Made by a program: the position numbers and the translations under genes | Source of the DNA: Armatimonadota bacterium | GTDB taxonomy: Bacteria > Armatimonadota > Fimbriimonadia > Fimbriimonadales > Fimbriimonadaceae | Direction of reading: 5' to 3' | DNA length: 64,000 nucleotides | Assembly (NCBI GenBank): GCA_018268315.1 | Contig: JAFDWU010000002.1 | Location: 267,638 to 331,637, forward strand | Part shown: positions 36,004-45,927 of the stretch, piece by piece | Layout: the number at the start of each line of letters is the position of its first letter | How positions within the stretch are numbered: position 1 is the stretch's first letter | The notes under the pieces: generated by a model | Databases searched by the model: none | Told to the model about the DNA's origin: nothing | What the model saw: only the letters and a program-made list of their open reading frames with translations

Positions 36004-38406
36004 TCAGAAGGTGAAGTTGGCTGATAGCAATATCCGCCGGCCCTCTTGGAATCTCGTGCCGCTAAATGCCGACTGGAAATTGATCACTTTTCGGGAGTCG
36101 AACAGATTCGTCACATCAAGCCCAATGCTGCCATGCCCCCAAAGCGTTTGATTGCTGGTCGCCATCCTTAAGTCGACCTGCGAGCGGGGCGTGCGGTTAA
36201 TCGACGGCGGCACGATGCTGCTGGCAAGCCCACTTCCGAACGTATAAGTGAACGCCGCCGTTGCCCCGTTCTTCCAGGTGTGGGCAATGCCCGCACCGAT
36301 GGTGTCTCGCTGGTCATGGTCGTTAAACTCCGGCGCTGGCGCGCCAGTGTTATCGAAGCCGCCTGGCTTGGCGGCAGAGTGGGACAGGTTGAGGTATCCA
36401 TCAAAGCCCTTCATTGCCGCAACGTCATACGAGACTTCCAGCCCGTGAACTGCGCCTTCGTCAAAATTCACGCCCGAATAGAGCCCAATCTGGCTACCCG
36501 GGATGAGCAGCCCGACATCGACCTGATCCTGAATCTTCTTATAATAGTAGGCCACCGTCAAGCTTTGCCCTCGACCAAGCTTCGTGTCCAAACTCAGGTC
36601 GTATTGTGAGACCTTCTCGGGCTTCAGCCCAACACCAACCAAAGCGCCCTGCGCGAGCGGCGGCGTGTTGAACAGCTTGTCGTACGAAGCCTTCAGCGTC
36701 GATCGGCCATTTAGCCGGTATTGAAGGTTGACCCGGGGCGAGAGCAAAGTGGCGTCAACCGCTCCAGCTTGTAGCGATTCGGTTTGGTGATAGGTATCAA
36801 GCCGCAATCCGTAGTTCGCGCTAAAGCGGCCAGTCGAGAATGTGTCCTGCGCGTAAAGCGCCGAGTAACGACTTGAACGGTTCACTGCAAGGGTTGGGGT
36901 TACGTTTGAAGTAGCGACGTAGACCGGATTGCCGTTCACGTCCTTCGCGCCGGTGGCGTGGCCAGCCGGGGCAAGCCCGGGATCGATTGCGGCGAGCTCA
37001 TCCAAAGCGAGCTGGCTGTCGGGCGTGATTTGATACGATTCATTCCCGCTCTGCTGATCCAGTGTAAAACCAACCTTCCAGCGATGGGCCTGCGCCCTGC
37101 CGGAGTACGACCCCACCCACTGCACGTGATGGGCGTTTCGGCGAGAGGTCGGATTGAATTCAATGCTATTGTCGACCGGAAGGTTAAGCAAGTCCACCGC
37201 CGGATTAGAGTTATCAACATCCTGCCCCGAGTGAAGGAAGGTAACTGCAAGCTGAAGCTGGCTTCCATTGCCAACGTCGTGCTGCCAATTCAGAGTGCTG
37301 AAGGTCGTGACCTCGGTTACGCGGATATCCATTCCCGCGTCCTGCTGAGATTTCAACACGAGTGGCCCTGCGCCGAGCAGGTTGGGATCCATGGCATCTG
37401 GGCGCGTGCCGTCCGCATTCCGCAGACCCTGGAAGCCGTATCCTTCGCCTGCCGAGGCGTATTGCTCGCCCAGCCCTGTCCGATTGCCCACCTGAAACCC
37501 ATCCGGCGAGTGGCTAACGGTGACCGTCAAGCGATCTCTCGGCGTCGCCCGATAGCCCAGCTTCATGAAGGCAGACTGCGTGTACCCCTGGTTATGCGCT
37601 GCCTGACGGTCCGGCTGGGATGGCTCTTGAAAGCTGTTGGAGGCGGTCGTGGCCAGGTTCAGCACCATGTTCCACTTATTGCCGATTGGGCCGGCGACGG
37701 TGACGGTGTTATTCAACGTGCCGTAGCTGCCGCCCTGCACCGTCCCCTCCGTGCTGTTCTTCCTGGCAGGGACCGTGGTTACGTTTAGCACCGCCGCCGT
37801 TTGGCCACCAAATTCGGGGGCGAACCCGCCGGTCAGGAGTTCCAGCGTTTCAATCGTCGATGGCACAATCACGGAGCCAGAGCGGCCCGAGAGCGTATCC
37901 GGCAAAGGCACGCCATCGGTCACGTAGGTGATGTCCGTATGGGCGCCGCGAACGTGCTGCTGACCGGCAGAGTCTTCGGTTACGCCCGGCTGACCCTTGG
38001 TTAGAGCCCGTGTGTCGCCGGAGGTGGTGTTCACAAACTTTGATATTTCGCTCTTATCGCGCACGGTGCCAACCGCAGTTGGCTGGGCGCTTCGCTTAAG
38101 CCTGGTGGCGGTTACCCGCACCTTGATTTCCGTTATTGGCGGCTCTTGCGCTAGGAGCTTGGTCGAATTGGGTTTTAGCACCACGCTCTCGCCAACCGCC
38201 TTCACAACCTTCATCAGCTTCAAGTCGACTGCGGGCGTCCAGCCATCTTTGCCGGTTCTTAATAGCAGTTGTCGTCCGGCGACATCCTGAACCGTGACCT
38301 CGCCCGCAACATGCGTTCCGTCCTGCCCGGCCACCGCAAAGCGTACGGTGCGGGCGAAGCCCGCAGTGGCGACCAAGGCAAGCGCCAGTGTCAAAAGTGA
38401 TCTCAT
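36004..38406 (-). CDS. TonB-dependent outer-membrane receptor
   Basis: 800 aa. Signal peptide (SLLTLALALVATAGFA), then a roughly 75-residue N-terminal extension that looks like a small carboxypeptidase-regulatory-like domain (VAGEVTVQDVAGRQLLLRTG), a plug domain from about 90 (ITEIKVRVTA near the TonB-box area, and GVTEDSAGQQHVRGAHTDITYVTDGVPLPD split as VRGAHTDITYVTDGVPLPD), then the barrel ending RILLSANFTF. It is the last gene of an operon exbB-exbD-tonB-receptor, so its own energising motor is encoded beside it. The substrate is unknown; the CsoR-type operator upstream of exbB suggests copper or sulfur-related control. Start overlaps tonB stop (ATGA). Confidence 0.9.
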   Translation of the reverse strand: MRSLLTLALALVATAGFARTVRFAVAGQDGTHVAGEVTVQDVAGRQLLLRTGKDGWTPAVDLKLMKVVKAVGESVVLKPNSTKLLAQEPPITEIKVRVTATRLKRSAQPTAVGTVRDKSEISKFVNTTSGDTRALTKGQPGVTEDSAGQQHVRGAHTDITYVTDGVPLPDTLSGRSGSVIVPSTIETLELLTGGFAPEFGGQTAAVLNVTTVPARKNSTEGTVQGGSYGTLNNTVTVAGPIGNKWNMVLNLATTASNSFQEPSQPDRQAAHNQGYTQSAFMKLGYRATPRDRLTVTVSHSPDGFQVGNRTGLGEQYASAGEGYGFQGLRNADGTRPDAMDPNLLGAGPLVLKSQQDAGMDIRVTEVTTFSTLNWQHDVGNGSQLQLAVTFLHSGQDVDNSNPAVDLLNLPVDNSIEFNPTSRRNAHHVQWVGSYSGRAQAHRWKVGFTLDQQSGNESYQITPDSQLALDELAAIDPGLAPAGHATGAKDVNGNPVYVATSNVTPTLAVNRSSRYSALYAQDTFSTGRFSANYGLRLDTYHQTESLQAGAVDATLLSPRVNLQYRLNGRSTLKASYDKLFNTPPLAQGALVGVGLKPEKVSQYDLSLDTKLGRGQSLTVAYYYKKIQDQVDVGLLIPGSQIGLYSGVNFDEGAVHGLEVSYDVAAMKGFDGYLNLSHSAAKPGGFDNTGAPAPEFNDHDQRDTIGAGIAHTWKNGATAAFTYTFGSGLASSIVPPSINRTPRSQVDLRMATSNQTLWGHGSIGLDVTNLFDSRKVINFQSAFSGTRFQEGRRILLSANFTF

Positions 38407-39164
38407 CCGCCCTCCACTCGAAACTCAATCGTTAGCCGGACCTTGCCGGGAACCGGTTGTCCATCGCGGGTGGCCGGTTGGAATCGCCACTTCTTGGCCG
38501 CTTCCAGGGCTAGGCGATCTAATTCAAAGATGCCGGTCGATTGCGCGACCTTCACATCTGTCGGAACCCCATCTGCGCCCACTTCAAACTCGGCAACGAA
38601 ATCTTTGGAAAGGTCCTCCGCGCGGTAGTCATCAGGAATAACCGGCAAGGGCTGGGCAATCGGCTTCGCCCCGGCGAAGACCGGCACGTGCGGCGTAGCC
38701 GTTGGCTCCGTCGGCGCGGGCTTCTCAACATCAGCTTTTGGAGCGGGCTTCACCGCTTCCGGCTGAGGCTGAGGTTGCGGCATAGCTGGCGTAGGTTCCT
38801 TCGTAGTTGGGACCACACCGGCTTTGCCGGTTCCGCTCTCGACCGCGGCCGGACCGTCTCCACTGGCGCTATCGGGCGCGGCATCGCTGGTCACGACCTT
38901 CGGCGCGTTCAGATTCGCACCGCCGCGGTGGGCCACGGACTTAGCAGCAGATTTCTTTGGCGGAGCGGGCTTCTCTTTCGGCTTTTCCTTCTGCTCTTCC
39001 GGCGCGGAAGTCAGCATGACCACGCTCACCTTGTTGGCGGCATCTTGAAGCTTCTGAAAAGCCCCGAAGTGGGCAAGAATTGGTAAAGCGATGACGTGCA
39101 GGCCAACGGAGATCGCAATGATGCGACCAAGCAGCGGATTCTTCTTTCGCCTGCGTCTGCTCAT
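38403..39164 (-). CDS. tonB: TonB energy transducer
   Basis: 253 aa. A single N-terminal membrane helix (LGRIIAISVGLHVIALPILAHF), then a long Pro/Lys/Glu-rich periplasmic linker (about residues 55-170) and a C-terminal TonB domain (VGADGVPTDVKVAQSTGIFE, then LDRLALEAAKKWRFQPA). The domain order and motifs are standard. It couples the proton motive force from ExbBD to the receptor encoded directly downstream. Many copies of such linkers occur in AP-rich DNA; the ATGA overlap with the receptor gene indicates coupling. Confidence 0.92.
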   Translation of the reverse strand: MSRRRRKKNPLLGRIIAISVGLHVIALPILAHFGAFQKLQDAANKVSVVMLTSAPEEQKEKPKEKPAPPKKSAAKSVAHRGGANLNAPKVVTSDAAPDSASGDGPAAVESGTGKAGVVPTTKEPTPAMPQPQPQPEAVKPAPKADVEKPAPTEPTATPHVPVFAGAKPIAQPLPVIPDDYRAEDLSKDFVAEFEVGADGVPTDVKVAQSTGIFELDRLALEAAKKWRFQPATRDGQPVPGKVRLTIEFRVEGG

Positions 39165-39167
39165 GCC

Positions 39168-39590
39168 CTAGCCCTTCGAGGTCGCGAACGCGAACTGGGT
39201 GATGCCCGCCTTGCGCGCCTCATCCATCACGGCGATCACAAGGCCGTGCGGCACCGCGGCATCGGCGTTCACGGTCACCACGTTCCTGCTGCTGACGCCT
39301 AGTCCTTCCAGCTTTGCCTCAAGCTGGCCGACCGCCAAAGGCGCGGTGTTCAAAAACACCCGCTGGTTCTTTGTGATCGTTATCGTCAAGGTCTGCATAT
39401 TGGTGTCCTTGCCGCTTGCCGCCTTGGGCAGGGTGACGGGGATGCCGTTCTGGACCGCCATCGCCAGCGAAGCGACCATGAAGAAGAAAAGCAGGAACAT
39501 CATCACGTCGATCATCGGGATCACGATGATCTCCGGCTCCTCAACATGGCGGCGCTTGCCCAGCGCCACTCGGCGGCGCATCGAAGCCAT
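39168..39590 (-). CDS. exbD: ExbD/TolR-family biopolymer transport protein
   Basis: 140 aa. One membrane helix near the N-terminus, PEIIVIPMIDVMMFLLFFFMV, in which the conserved Asp (PMIDVM) sits in the proton path, and a periplasmic domain with the ExbD signature (VNADAAVPHGLVIAVMDEAR, then GITQFAFATSKG). Forms a complex with the ExbB-like protein encoded upstream and TonB downstream. Three bases separate it from exbB and from tonB. Confidence 0.92.
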   Translation of the reverse strand: MASMRRRVALGKRRHVEEPEIIVIPMIDVMMFLLFFFMVASLAMAVQNGIPVTLPKAASGKDTNMQTLTITITKNQRVFLNTAPLAVGQLEAKLEGLGVSSRNVVTVNADAAVPHGLVIAVMDEARKAGITQFAFATSKG

Positions 39591-39593
39591 GGG

Positions 39594-40211
39594 TTAGTCC
39601 ACCCTCCCGCTAACGTAATTCACAAACTCAGCGCCGTAATACTCGAGGTCGTCCATCGTCTTCTTGCCCAAGTTCGCGAAATAGTTGTGGACGAGGAAGC
39701 CGATGATCGCGACGGTGATGCCGGACGCGGTGCTCACCAGCGCCTCGCTGATGCCGCCGAGAATCTGGGTGGGGTTGGAAAGGCCCGCTGCGCTTGCGAC
39801 TCTGAACGAGGCAATCATGCCGAAGATCGTGCCCAGCAGCCCGAGCAGCGGGGCGATGTTGACAATGGTCTTCACGACCGGCAGATTTGCCTCCAGGTTC
39901 GGGATTTCGCTTGCCGCTTCGAACTCAAGCGCCATCTCGATGGCGTCCGGTTCGCGGGCGCTGTTTCGCAAGCCGCGGGCGAACATCATGCCAAGAATTC
40001 CCTGCTTTTCGCAGGCTTCAATGGCCCTCGTGGGATCGCCGCCCGGCTTATAAAGCTCCTTGATCTCGTCCAGCAAGTCGTCGCCATCTGTTGTGAGCTT
40101 CCGGAAGGTGATCGCCCGCTCCAAGGTAAGCGAGATCAGGATGATCGAGCAAAGGATGAGCGGGTACATCATGACCCCGCCGTTGTGGATAAATTCGAGT
40201 ACTTGGTTCAA
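39594..40211 (-). CDS. exbB: ExbB/TolQ/MotA-family proton channel protein
   Basis: 205 aa, TTG start with GGAG 11 nt upstream. Three membrane helices: one near residues 10-28 (GGVMMYPLILCSIILISL), and two more in the C-terminal half (VVKTIVNIAPLLGLLGTIFG and ALVSTASGITVAIIGFLVHN) with the conserved T-A-x-G-x-x-V-A. It is the first gene of the exbB-exbD-tonB-receptor operon, and the promoter with a CsoR-type operator lies 20 bases upstream. Confidence 0.92.
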   Translation of the reverse strand: MNQVLEFIHNGGVMMYPLILCSIILISLTLERAITFRKLTTDGDDLLDEIKELYKPGGDPTRAIEACEKQGILGMMFARGLRNSAREPDAIEMALEFEAASEIPNLEANLPVVKTIVNIAPLLGLLGTIFGMIASFRVASAAGLSNPTQILGGISEALVSTASGITVAIIGFLVHNYFANLGKKTMDDLEYYGAEFVNYVSGRVD

Positions 40212-40230: not shown

Positions 40231-40259
40231 TATATACCCTAAGGGGGTATACGTATCAA
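40231..40259 (-). promoter_or_regulatory. Promoter of exbBD-tonB-receptor operon
   Basis: On the minus strand TTGATA (-35, 40259-40254) and TATATA (-10, 40236-40231) are separated by exactly 17 nt. The transcription start would be near 40224, giving a leader of about 13 nt with GGAG before the exbB TTG. The spacer carries the CsoR-type operator. Confidence 0.7.
40233..40251. promoter_or_regulatory. CsoR-family operator-like inverted repeat
   Basis: TATACCC-TAAGG-GGGTATA: perfect 7-bp arms, with the CsoR/CstR-type pattern (TACCC ... GGGGGTA) known for copper- and persulfide-sensing repressors. It sits between -35 and -10 of the exbB promoter, where a bound repressor would block polymerase. 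No csoR gene is in the window. Confidence 0.7.
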
Positions 40260-40312: not shown

Positions 40313-42112
40313 ATGTCGGCCAGCGCTTTTCTTGTCACCACCCTTGCATCCTCCTTGCTGATGGGGGCAACCCAGAGCAGCCCCAGTGATTGGCTAGCGC
40401 CTAAGTACGCCGCCGTGCAGGGGCAAATCGAGGGTTCAAAGCTGGATAAGGACACAAAAGCGCAGCTAACCGGTCTGCTGGAGCGCGCCCGAGGAGAGAC
40501 AAAAGCGGGGCGAAACTATTACGCGCTCAAGGTCCTGTCTTATTCCATCACCAACCTGAGGGCGATGGCCTATCCCGGCACGCAAGGCACAGCCGCCAAA
40601 GAACGGGATGCCTACGACAAGGCGTTCGCCGCTTACGCCCCCAAACTCCAAGCCGAGATGGAGAAGCCTTACGCCGACTTACCGCTCGCCCAGTTGGGGC
40701 TTGCCCAGCGATCTCGCAACAAGGCAAAGCCGTTCTTCGACGCCGGTCAGCCTTACGGCTACGAGGCTGGCTTGGAAGCAGGACTCTCCTATCTCGGCCT
40801 TGCCGACGGGCTGCTGGAGTACGCGAATTGGTGCGCTGAATCCCCCTTCCAGACTCCGGAAGCGAACTATGGCCTCCGCTCGGTCGAGCCCGAGCTTGCC
40901 GAGCTTGATAGCAAAGTGCTGAGTGAGTTCGACAAATCCACTGCTGCCCAGCGCGGCGACTTCATTCCCATCAACGATGCGATGAAGGAGGGCCACGAAC
41001 TGAACGAGCGCGGCTGGTACGCCGGGGCAATCGTCGCCTATCTAGACGCTGAATTCCTCTTCGCTCATCGTACGCCCGCAACTGCGACCCGGGAGGTTCT
41101 TGAAGCAAACCTTGAGAAAGAGAAGTTGGAGATCGCCAAGCTTCCCGGCGACAACACGATTGGCCAGATGTATGTGGAAGCTGCCGAATCGTACTTAGCC
41201 GGCGGCCCAGCCCGCCTAGGAGACGCCCAAGCGATCATCACTGACATCCTTCCCCGCTACCGCGCGATTCTGACGACCAAGCCCGCGATGCCGGTCTCCG
41301 CCAAGGAGCAAGGCGCGAAGATCACGGTGACTCTGGTGCGATGGCCATACACCTGCAGCCTTTCCGACCCCGCGAGCCTGCTTGCGCGCAACGTGGTCCG
41401 CCAGTTCCCGCACGACGTGCAGTTCGTCAGCGAAGACCTCACCCACTCTGAGCTTGCCAAACGCTACAACCTCACCGAGTATCCCGCGCTGTTCGTGAAC
41501 GACGTGCTGGTTGCCCAGCCAAGCGACTTCACCACCTTCTGGGCGGAGAAGCGAAGCGGCAAATACGTTCCTTTCGACAAGAAGGAGAACCAGGACAAGT
41601 TCATGGCCGACGTGAGCGAGGTCATCAACATGTTCCGCAAGGGCGATGCGAACGCCGCCGCGAAGCTTGGCGAGACTCCGGCCGTCGCCGCGAAAGCCAC
41701 CCTCTTCCCGGATGTCCAGCTTACGGATCTAAGCGGCAAGCCGGTAAACGCTGAAACGCTGAAGGGTAGGGCGGTAATTGTGGAGTGCTGGGCGCCCTGG
41801 TGCCCGCCCTGCCGCGAGACGCTTGCCTGGCTTGAGGGCGTGATAAAGAAGCAGGGCGATAAGCTTGCCGTCGTCGGCCTAGCGGTGATGTGCAAGGAAA
41901 GCGAAGTGCGCGAGTATCTGGCGCAAAAACCAAGCCACGCGATCATCGCGATGGGTTCAGCGGAGGTGCAGGCCAAGTTCGGCTCCTTCGTCTCAATCCC
42001 GCAGATGTTCATCTATGACGGCAACGGTCGGCTGGTGCAGTCGCTGGTCGGCGCCTCGCCTGATAACCACGCGAAGGTTGAAGCGACGCTGAAGCAGCTA
42101 CTAGGGCGCTAA
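40313..42112 (+). CDS. Thioredoxin-fold protein with TlpA/ResA-type C-terminal domain
   Basis: 599 aa from the ATG at 40313 (an upstream frame exists but starts before the promoter region). Residues 1-25 look like a signal peptide. About 40-340: helical, Ala/Glu-rich domain of unknown type. About 355-420: a degenerate thioredoxin-like region (VTLVRWPYTCSLSDPASLLA, then TEYPALFVND). About 470-599: a TlpA/ResA-like thioredoxin domain with the active site CWAPWCPPCRETL (CPPC) and the cis-Pro in FVSIPQMFIYDG. It probably reduces or oxidises disulfides outside the cytoplasm. Given the Ccm genes nearby and the missing CcmG, it is a candidate apocytochrome reductant, though equally a general oxidoreductase. 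It is divergent from exbB across the CsoR-type operator. Confidence 0.85.
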   Translation: MSASAFLVTTLASSLLMGATQSSPSDWLAPKYAAVQGQIEGSKLDKDTKAQLTGLLERARGETKAGRNYYALKVLSYSITNLRAMAYPGTQGTAAKERDAYDKAFAAYAPKLQAEMEKPYADLPLAQLGLAQRSRNKAKPFFDAGQPYGYEAGLEAGLSYLGLADGLLEYANWCAESPFQTPEANYGLRSVEPELAELDSKVLSEFDKSTAAQRGDFIPINDAMKEGHELNERGWYAGAIVAYLDAEFLFAHRTPATATREVLEANLEKEKLEIAKLPGDNTIGQMYVEAAESYLAGGPARLGDAQAIITDILPRYRAILTTKPAMPVSAKEQGAKITVTLVRWPYTCSLSDPASLLARNVVRQFPHDVQFVSEDLTHSELAKRYNLTEYPALFVNDVLVAQPSDFTTFWAEKRSGKYVPFDKKENQDKFMADVSEVINMFRKGDANAAAKLGETPAVAAKATLFPDVQLTDLSGKPVNAETLKGRAVIVECWAPWCPPCRETLAWLEGVIKKQGDKLAVVGLAVMCKESEVREYLAQKPSHAIIAMGSAEVQAKFGSFVSIPQMFIYDGNGRLVQSLVGASPDNHAKVEATLKQLLGR

Positions 42113-43980: not shown

Positions 43981-44697
43981 CTAATTCTCGGTTGCCTGCC
44001 GCTCAACTCGATACGAAGTTGTAGCGCCAGCGCCCGCTTCGCTCATTCCATCAAGGTCCTTCGCCTTTCGGGCCAAAAGCCCTGCGCGCACGTTCATGTT
44101 GTAGATCCAGAACGAGATGATGAGCAGCATGGCGAACAGCGGCAGAATCACCATCCAGTACTCGCCGGAGAACTTGCCACCCTGAACAGTGTCGCTGGGG
44201 TGAAGACTCTTATCCGCAACCTGCGGCAGCCGCGGGAACACCGCGATAAAGAAGAAATTGGGCAACACCGAAATCGTTGCATAGGCGCACGCGGCGCGAG
44301 CACGAAGCTGCTCGTCGTCGAACGCCATCCGAACGGCGAAGTATCCCGCCAGCAGAAAGAGCACGATCAGGAACGAGGTCTGGCGAGGGTCCCAGTGCCA
44401 CCAGGCGCCCCACTGGGCCTTGGAGAAAAGCATGCCTGAAAGCATTGTTGCGATGCCCAAGCTAAGGGCAAGGTCGCTAGATGCATGGCATCTCAGCTCC
44501 CACAGCCAATTCTTTGTGCGCAAATACTGCAAGCCCGCGATCGCGGAAACGATGCAGAAAATCGTGGTGGCAAACGCAGCCGGAAGATGGAAGAAGATGA
44601 TGCGGGCGAGTTCAGGCTCCGCAAATCCCTTGGCGGGAGGCGCAGTGAAGGACATAACCGTGAGCACTGCGACGAGAACGAACAGAATGTATTTCAA
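43981..44697 (-). CDS. ccmC: Heme export/CcmC protein (WWD domain)
   Basis: 238 aa with six membrane helices. The WWD heme-handling motif is intact at about 96-110: WGAWWHWDPRQTSFL. N-terminal block FAEPELARIIFFHLPAAFAT and C-terminal YWMVILPLFAMLLII are as in CcmC. CcmC presents heme to CcmE. It is the last gene of ccmA-ccmB-ccmC, overlapping ccmB by 4 bases. CcmD and CcmE are about 16 kb away on the opposite strand, so the Ccm genes are in two loci here. Confidence 0.92.
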   Translation of the reverse strand: MKYILFVLVAVLTVMSFTAPPAKGFAEPELARIIFFHLPAAFATTIFCIVSAIAGLQYLRTKNWLWELRCHASSDLALSLGIATMLSGMLFSKAQWGAWWHWDPRQTSFLIVLFLLAGYFAVRMAFDDEQLRARAACAYATISVLPNFFFIAVFPRLPQVADKSLHPSDTVQGGKFSGEYWMVILPLFAMLLIISFWIYNMNVRAGLLARKAKDLDGMSEAGAGATTSYRVERQATEN

Positions 44698-45371
44698 GAA
44701 TCCTTCCAGATTGCCGCGAACACGTGCGGTCCTAAAGAGACAACGAGCAGAGTATACGCCCAGATTCCGACACAGGTAAAGAACCCATTTCCAAGGTCAC
44801 CAACACCGAATGCCGCCCGGGTAGCGCCTGCGCCAAGGGCTACCAGCGGAATCAGTTGCGGCAACGCTACCACTCCCGCCAACGCGCTGCGGCTGTTCCC
44901 ACGCGAAACGATGGCAGAGGAGAGGGTCACGATCTCGGCAAGGCATCCGCAGCCGCCCACCAGCGAAGTCACCAGCAGTAGCGGGCTCTTTACGTCCAGG
45001 CTAGACGTGACCACAAATAGGAGGGTGACGAGGAAGGCGGTGACCGTCATCACCAGAAACGCGAAGATCATCTTGCCCCAGTAGACCGAGTAGGGCCGCG
45101 CCCAAAGACGCAAAAGGTCACCGGTGCCATTCTCATCCTCGGCTACAAACGCCCGGTTCAGCGAGCCAACGCCTGCGAATAGCAGCGCCGCCCACAACAT
45201 GCCCGCGGCACCCTCGCCGGTTAGCGTACGCCCGTAGAACGCAAAGGACATCACGAACACCGTAGTAAGGCTTAACAGCAAACCGCTATAAAGCCCGCTC
45301 CGATTTCGGAACTCGCATTGGAGTTCCTTGCGGACCATCGCCCGAATTTCAGAGTCCCAGGTTGATTTCAT
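44694..45371 (-). CDS. ccmB: Heme exporter protein CcmB
   Basis: 225 aa from the ATG at 45371; a TTG three codons upstream is less likely because AAGGAG stands too close to it. Six hydrophobic segments and typical motifs: VRKELQCEFRNRSGLYSGLLLS at the N-terminus, NRAFVAEDENGTGDLLRLWA, then YSVYWGKMIFAFLVMTVTAF and VALPQLIPLVALGAGAT. CcmB is the membrane part of the CcmAB transporter that drives release of holo-CcmE from CcmC. It overlaps ccmA by 23 bases. Confidence 0.9.
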   Translation of the reverse strand: MKSTWDSEIRAMVRKELQCEFRNRSGLYSGLLLSLTTVFVMSFAFYGRTLTGEGAAGMLWAALLFAGVGSLNRAFVAEDENGTGDLLRLWARPYSVYWGKMIFAFLVMTVTAFLVTLLFVVTSSLDVKSPLLLVTSLVGGCGCLAEIVTLSSAIVSRGNSRSALAGVVALPQLIPLVALGAGATRAAFGVGDLGNGFFTCVGIWAYTLLVVSLGPHVFAAIWKDS

Positions 45372-45927
45372 GCGTAGCAAGACTCCTTTCTCGGCGGTCG
45401 TTCGTGGCGAGGATCAACGCGGTCGTCGCACGTCGGCTATCGACCACCCGCTTAAACATCGTTTGGCCGGTGGCGTCAAGTCCGGCGGTAGGCTCATCAA
45501 GCAGCAGAACCGAGACGGGGCACTGGATGGCCATCGCAAGCTTCAGGCGGGCGCGCATTCCCGACGAGAGATTGCCTCCCGCGGTGCTTGCGGCATATCC
45601 AAGCTCAACTTCCTCGAGAAGCTGTTTGTTGTCGCACTCCACTCCGCGCAGGTCCGCGGCAAGCTGAAGGTGTTCTAGCACCGTGAGGACGGGATAGACC
45701 GGCTGATCCAGCGCGGCATACCCAAGGGAGGTTCGAGGGTCGCCCACCACTCGACGACTACCCTCGGTAGGCGGCAGCAGACCGGCAAGAATCTTCAGCA
45801 GGGTGCTTTTGCCGGAGCCGTTGCGGCCAACGACGACTAGGCACTCGCCGGTCGTAACCTGGAATTCAACGTTTCGAAAAAGCCATCGATCCCCATAGCG
45901 CTTTCCGAGGCCGCTGCAGGCGATCAT
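45349..45927 (-). CDS. ccmA: Heme exporter ATP-binding protein CcmA
   Basis: 192 aa. ABC ATPase: Walker A GRNGSGKST (34-42), Q-loop LDQPVYPVLTV-type, signature LSSGMRARLKLA and Walker B VLLLDEPTAGLD. The position of the usual H-loop His reads ALILATNDRRE, with Asn, so ATP hydrolysis may be weak or the alignment may shift. It pairs with CcmB. A -10-like TATACT lies 7 nt upstream of the ATG, with no Shine-Dalgarno (leaderless). It is the first gene of ccmABC. Confidence 0.9.
   Translation of the reverse strand: MIACSGLGKRYGDRWLFRNVEFQVTTGECLVVVGRNGSGKSTLLKILAGLLPPTEGSRRVVGDPRTSLGYAALDQPVYPVLTVLEHLQLAADLRGVECDNKQLLEEVELGYAASTAGGNLSSGMRARLKLAMAIQCPVSVLLLDEPTAGLDATGQTMFKRVVDSRRATTALILATNDRRERSLATHEINLGL

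Follow-up and report, generated by a model that had tools for sequence, protein, structure and literature searches.

A putative CsoR-type operator conserved at an exbBD-tonB-receptor operon of the Fimbriimonadaceae

The exbB operon and its upstream region

The window, the whole 64-kb stretch of DNA that was analysed, carries on its minus strand an operon whose products were assigned by Pfam as ExbB, ExbD, TonB and a TonB-dependent receptor, in agreement with the initial annotation. The genes and elements at the locus are the following:

36004..38406, minus strand: TonB-dependent receptor, 800 aa (PF00593, E 2.9e-24)
38403..39164, minus strand: tonB (PF03544, E 3.8e-14; TIGR01352 above cut-off)
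39168..39590, minus strand: exbD-like subunit (PF02472, E 1.6e-31)
39594..40211, minus strand: exbB-like proton channel subunit (PF01618, E 5.6e-29), with a TTG start and GGAG upstream
40231..40259, minus strand: proposed promoter TTGATA-N17-TATATA of weak consensus, with the operator inside
40233..40251, no strand assigned: palindrome TATACCC-TAAGG-GGGTATA with core TAC-N9-GTA, a putative CsoR type 2 operator by sequence and conservation
40313..42112, plus strand: TlpA/ResA-like thioredoxin-fold protein, a divergent neighbour (profile matches)

On the minus strand TTGATA (40259-40254) and TATATA (40236-40231) are spaced by exactly 17 nt and enclose the palindrome, just as the initial annotation wrote them, and the last four bases of the palindrome overlap the -10 hexamer. 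The two hexamers are not listed by a consensus promoter scanner, which demands a final T at the position where TATATA has A, and among relatives the first hexamer (-35) is kept only loosely; judged from the sequence, they are a reasonable but weak promoter call. The resemblance to a CsoR-type operator, also proposed earlier, is borne out by the TAC-N9-GTA core of type 2 operators: TAC-CCTAAGGGG-GTA is found at 40235-40249, an inverted repeat flanking G/C tracts, and as in type 2 operators the site overlaps the promoter of the presumably regulated operon, weak as the hexamers are, and is conserved there.

At up to three mismatches the perfect copy is the single match to the palindrome in the window, against 0.52 expected, and it is also the sole perfect copy in the 2.8-Mb genome, where about 0.01 would be expected from a uniform-base estimate. 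A search of the genome for further copies gave 20 places with three or fewer mismatches, against 64 for a reversed control pattern. The other 19 are thus at or below background, save one good site located upstream of a merC gene.

Residue counts show that the receptor has no Cys, and it can therefore have no CxxxM site of the OprC type. It matches none of the NCBIfam receptor models, so that neither mark of the copper receptors OprC and NosA, the CxxxM site in the plug and the NCBIfam copper-receptor model, is present, and the receptor, which the initial annotation proposed to inspect for a copper or sulfur-compound ligand, gives no copper signature. The predicted structure has a mean pLDDT of 53, and a profile search against solved structures gave only marginal matches in the plug region, to YncD and a PQQ transporter, with no clue to the substrate. 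A wider conserved neighbourhood that could name the substrate was considered and rejected, only the four-gene unit being generally conserved in relatives. Control of the divergent thioredoxin-fold gene by the operator was likewise dropped because in relatives this gene is not beside the operon and because its own promoter would lie outside the palindrome; it probably falls outside the regulated unit. Near this gene, at 43981-45927 on the minus strand, the window contains genes that resemble ccmA, ccmB and ccmC of cytochrome c maturation.

Distribution of the operator and of CsoR in the family

Ten other genomes of the Fimbriimonadaceae encode an orthologue of the receptor, 51-59% identical, and in every one its gene follows exbB-exbD-tonB. 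With a site defined by at most two mismatches to ATACCC-N5-GGGTAT, 9 of the 11 orthologous operons carry the operator near the start of exbB, about 20-95 bp upstream, where about 0.03 would be expected (background-based p about 8e-22, from a rate of 20 reversed-control matches in 685 kb). The absence of the palindrome at orthologous operons, which would have counted against the proposal, is thus not what is seen. When the merC site of the window genome is aligned with the nine exbB sites, TACCC and GGTA are invariant, and the right half-site continues into TATA-like sequence in most of the sites. The remaining two operons, in G010 and G035, show degenerate remnants, and G035 has no csoR; the operon of G044 has a site with two mismatches, yet no csoR was found in this 93%-complete assembly. 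The same operon is found in Chthonomonadales, and the operator is absent from the three orthologues there with a readable region upstream of exbB, so the wiring of the operator to exbB appears specific to the Fimbriimonadaceae. G001 and G006 also have palindromes upstream of receptor operons that are paralogous (L084:8514 and 8547; L085:6168).

The palindrome also precedes csoR-copA operons in genomes of the family, the classical autoregulated target of CsoR. With a spacer of either N4 or N5 allowed, 22 of the 24 copA-linked csoR genes are preceded by the motif (16 N4 and 6 N5), and several csoR genes of the other type have an N5 site. Over 85 genomes there are 35 exact N5 palindromes, against 4 for the reversed control, and the four that belong to csoR-less genomes are located within genes or at an unrelated gene. 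Since the motif stands before both csoR-copA operons and merC genes of the family, CsoR is the likely binder on this sequence evidence.

An unrooted tree of the CsoR proteins of the family, with a very long branch for one sequence from G018, divides them by a branch with 100/100 support into two sides, 13 of the proteins being encoded adjacent to copA and 21 not. A csoR gene, whose absence would have spoken against CsoR control, was found in the window genome: its single CsoR (PF02583, 87.7-88 bits against a cut-off of 22.8) belongs to the group not linked to copA, here called CsoR2, and is encoded at G000:C1:304.3 kb, directly behind an isocitrate/isopropylmalate-dehydrogenase-like gene named by eye from its sequence. 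It is away from the exbB operon, and no operator of its own was seen. The cultured F. ginsengisoli Gsoil 348 (G007) possesses both CsoRs as well as the three promoters; its csoR2 and exbB are transcribed away from each other, and the operator is located in the region that separates the two genes. Taken together, the csoR gene, the orthologous exbB sites and the motif at csoR-copA operons support the CsoR-type control that had been suggested for the operon.

Aligned with solved CsoRs, the closest of which are copper CsoRs, the protein of the window genome shows RYC...STH...ESC, that is, the Tyr before the first Cys and the Cys-His-Cys ligands of Cu(I), and these positions are kept in both CsoR types except in a degenerate G018 copy. 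Persulfide sensors of the CstR kind have two Cys and no copper His ligand; the His is present in all aligned CsoR2 proteins except the same degenerate paralogue. The nickel-cobalt sensors RcnR and InrS have a conserved N-terminal His ligand, and no conserved His was found at the N-terminus of the aligned CsoR2 proteins. The G018 paralogue (L076:12995-13252), which has lost all three copper-ligand positions, is encoded inside a second exbBD-tonB-receptor cluster with its own upstream palindrome ATACCCCCGCAAGGTAT, and is possibly a sensor of another signal. The same genome (L017 / L076:15312-18389) has a csoR2 that faces away from the gene of a second TonB-dependent receptor, which is more distant, and the near-palindrome ATACACTACGGGGGTAG is located between the two.

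The second good site of the window genome, TACCCCCAGGGGGTA, precedes a MerC-family gene at a distance of 20 bp. Of the 30 merC loci that were fetched from the family, 12 show a site just upstream, 11 of these in genomes typed as CsoR2, which are all the CsoR2-typed genomes of the fetched sample, and one in an untyped genome (G003); for the 18 loci with no site, the genome lacks csoR in 10 cases and has the copA-linked type in 8. Fisher's test on this split gives about 1e-8 by hand (a split of 13 and 17 was computed as 8e-9), a figure that overstates independence because the genomes are related. Additional merC genes with a site exist beyond the 30 loci. A perfect operator, ATACCCCCATAGGGTAT, was also observed in G011 (L015:1501-1882) before a gene for a MerT-family membrane protein. 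Control of copper efflux (copA/copZ), a usual but not defining feature of CsoR, is not seen for the protein of the window genome: no operator is located upstream of its copA, and 16 copA-like loci of 11 other genomes showed no N5 site. Copper export should therefore be outside the regulon of the window genome, which makes copper less certain as the physiological signal.

The operators of csoR-copA in the family are often ATACCC-N4-GGGTAT, and those of merC and exbB have N5 (L142, L144, L145, L187, L190, L191, L194). In G007, G012 and G022, which have both CsoR types and readable sites, the csoR-copA operator is N4 and the CsoR2 sites are N5. By sequence, this one-base difference in the spacer could keep the two repressors apart, a partition that rests on three genomes while copA-linked CsoRs elsewhere use N5.

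Proposed regulation and alternative explanations

Comparison established the presence and conservation of the site, its association with csoR and the set of promoters that carry it. We propose, with a probability of roughly 0.7, that the palindrome is an operator of CsoR2 and that Cu(I) releases this repressor, switching on the exbB operon and merC; repression, Cu(I) as inducer and the direction of the response are taken from what is known of the protein family. When no inducer is present, CsoR2 tetramers would bind TAC-N9-GTA across the spacer and the -10 box and keep RNA polymerase off the exbB promoter, and at the second site CsoR2 would likewise block the gene for the merC-type membrane protein. 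Binding of Cu(I) to the Cys-His-Cys site would free CsoR2 from both sites and both units would be expressed, so that rising cytosolic copper would bring forth an outer-membrane receptor and the TonB-ExbBD motor dedicated to it, together with an inner-membrane protein that handles metal. The initial annotation left the choice between copper and persulfide open; copper is now the likelier signal and persulfide the less likely, since the regulator keeps the Tyr-Cys...His...Cys site, and judged from the sequences it is probably copper rather than iron that switches the TonB operon on. A repressor released by Cu(I) implies that the TonB system is on in copper excess, and an importer switched on by copper excess is physiologically odd. 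The imported substrate may be a copper ligand, or some other nutrient that is in demand under copper stress.

The same operator and CsoR2 could respond to an inducer other than copper, either another soft metal (mercury, silver or nickel) or a thiol-reactive signal, which would switch on both MerC and the TonB operon. The co-regulated genes are of the MerC family, and in one genome of the MerT family, and do not include copA, and CsoR2 forms a group separate from the copA-linked CsoR; this reading is nevertheless unlikely in view of the full Y-C-H-C copper site of CsoR2, the copper CsoRs among its closest solved relatives, and, from the alignment and knowledge of the family, a CsoR2 that neither has the conserved N-terminal His of RcnR and InrS nor has lost the His as CstR has. 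The receptor, for its part, might under CsoR2 control be a common receptor for iron or siderophores, its induction by copper serving to offset the damage that copper does to iron metabolism. This is compatible with the proposed copper-released CsoR2 operator and fits a receptor with no Cys and no NCBIfam match as well as the general knowledge that copper stress raises the demand for iron, but the sole conserved control site that was found is of the CsoR type, and we consider such a receptor somewhat unlikely.

That the site belongs to some other regulator with a similar GGGTA palindrome would explain the recognisable site at the G044 operon, in a genome with no csoR detected; it is quite improbable, given that the motif goes along with csoR in the genomes of the family and marks csoR-copA operons as well as several csoR2 genes, and that the csoR-less G035 has only a degenerate site. 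Least credible, to the point of being negligible, is a chance palindrome in an AT-rich promoter: within one genome weak matches are indeed at background, but nine operons keep the palindrome in the same position.

If the operator of CsoR2 is read as proposed, a broader picture may be drawn, which we offer tentatively and at somewhat less than even odds. CsoR2 would run a copper-induced, two-part envelope regulon, consisting of the MerC-type protein and a private TonB system, apart from csoR-copA and with the operators separated by N5 versus N4. Such a copper-induced TonB system might serve to scavenge a copper ligand, to remove copper or to replace another nutrient.

Relation to known systems

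CsoR is known for its role in copper efflux. The operator and regulator described here are of a known kind, and the type of target was not found reported: no account of CsoR controlling a TonB system or MerC was found in the literature searched. Little is known of copper traffic across the outer membrane, and the proposed regulon supplies a testable function for a receptor family and a MerC family. It also provides an example from nature in which two paralogous repressors may be distinguished by operator spacing, in the Fimbriimonadaceae, a little-studied family of soil and water, and in Armatimonadota, a phylum with little regulatory biology.

Among the sulfur-responsive regulators, CstR and TTHA1953 (PMC10318464) share with the present case the CsoR protein family and operators based on TAC and GTA, but the TTHA1953 motif, TACNNTACNNNNGTANNGTA, has no G-tract, unlike the window site. 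A close likeness is to the type 2 operators of CsoR in S. lividans (csoR, copZA1 and copZA2), with consensus ATATACCCCTNAGGGGTATAT, which have the TAC-N9-GTA core and the G-tracts in common with the window site; the csoR-4375 site, AATACCCCTGGTGGGTATATAT, is nearly identical to it, and in the TAC/GTA core, which is essential, swapping any of the three bases abolished binding (PMC3902906). The CsoR proteins of S. lividans and of the window genome both have the Cys-His-Cys copper site. The targets differ, being csoR and the copper efflux genes copZA in S. lividans, and here the exbBD-tonB-receptor operon and merC, with copA devoid of a site.

NikR-controlled uptake is shut off, not switched on, by its metal. 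Nickel-regulated exbBD-tonB-receptor clusters of Proteobacteria (mentioned in PMC4284471) are dedicated Ton clusters under metal-responsive control, as is proposed here, and differ in the metal and in the regulator family. Copper-importing TonB-dependent receptors, under copper-linked control like that proposed here, are OprC of P. aeruginosa, whose CxxxM site is absent from the Cys-less receptor of the window, and CrtA of B. pertussis, some crtA loci being accompanied by exbBD-tonB (PMC12914433). The crtA gene is repressed by copper excess via the upstream ORF CruR (PMC12914433), whereas the CsoR site at the exbB operon predicts the opposite response, induction by copper.
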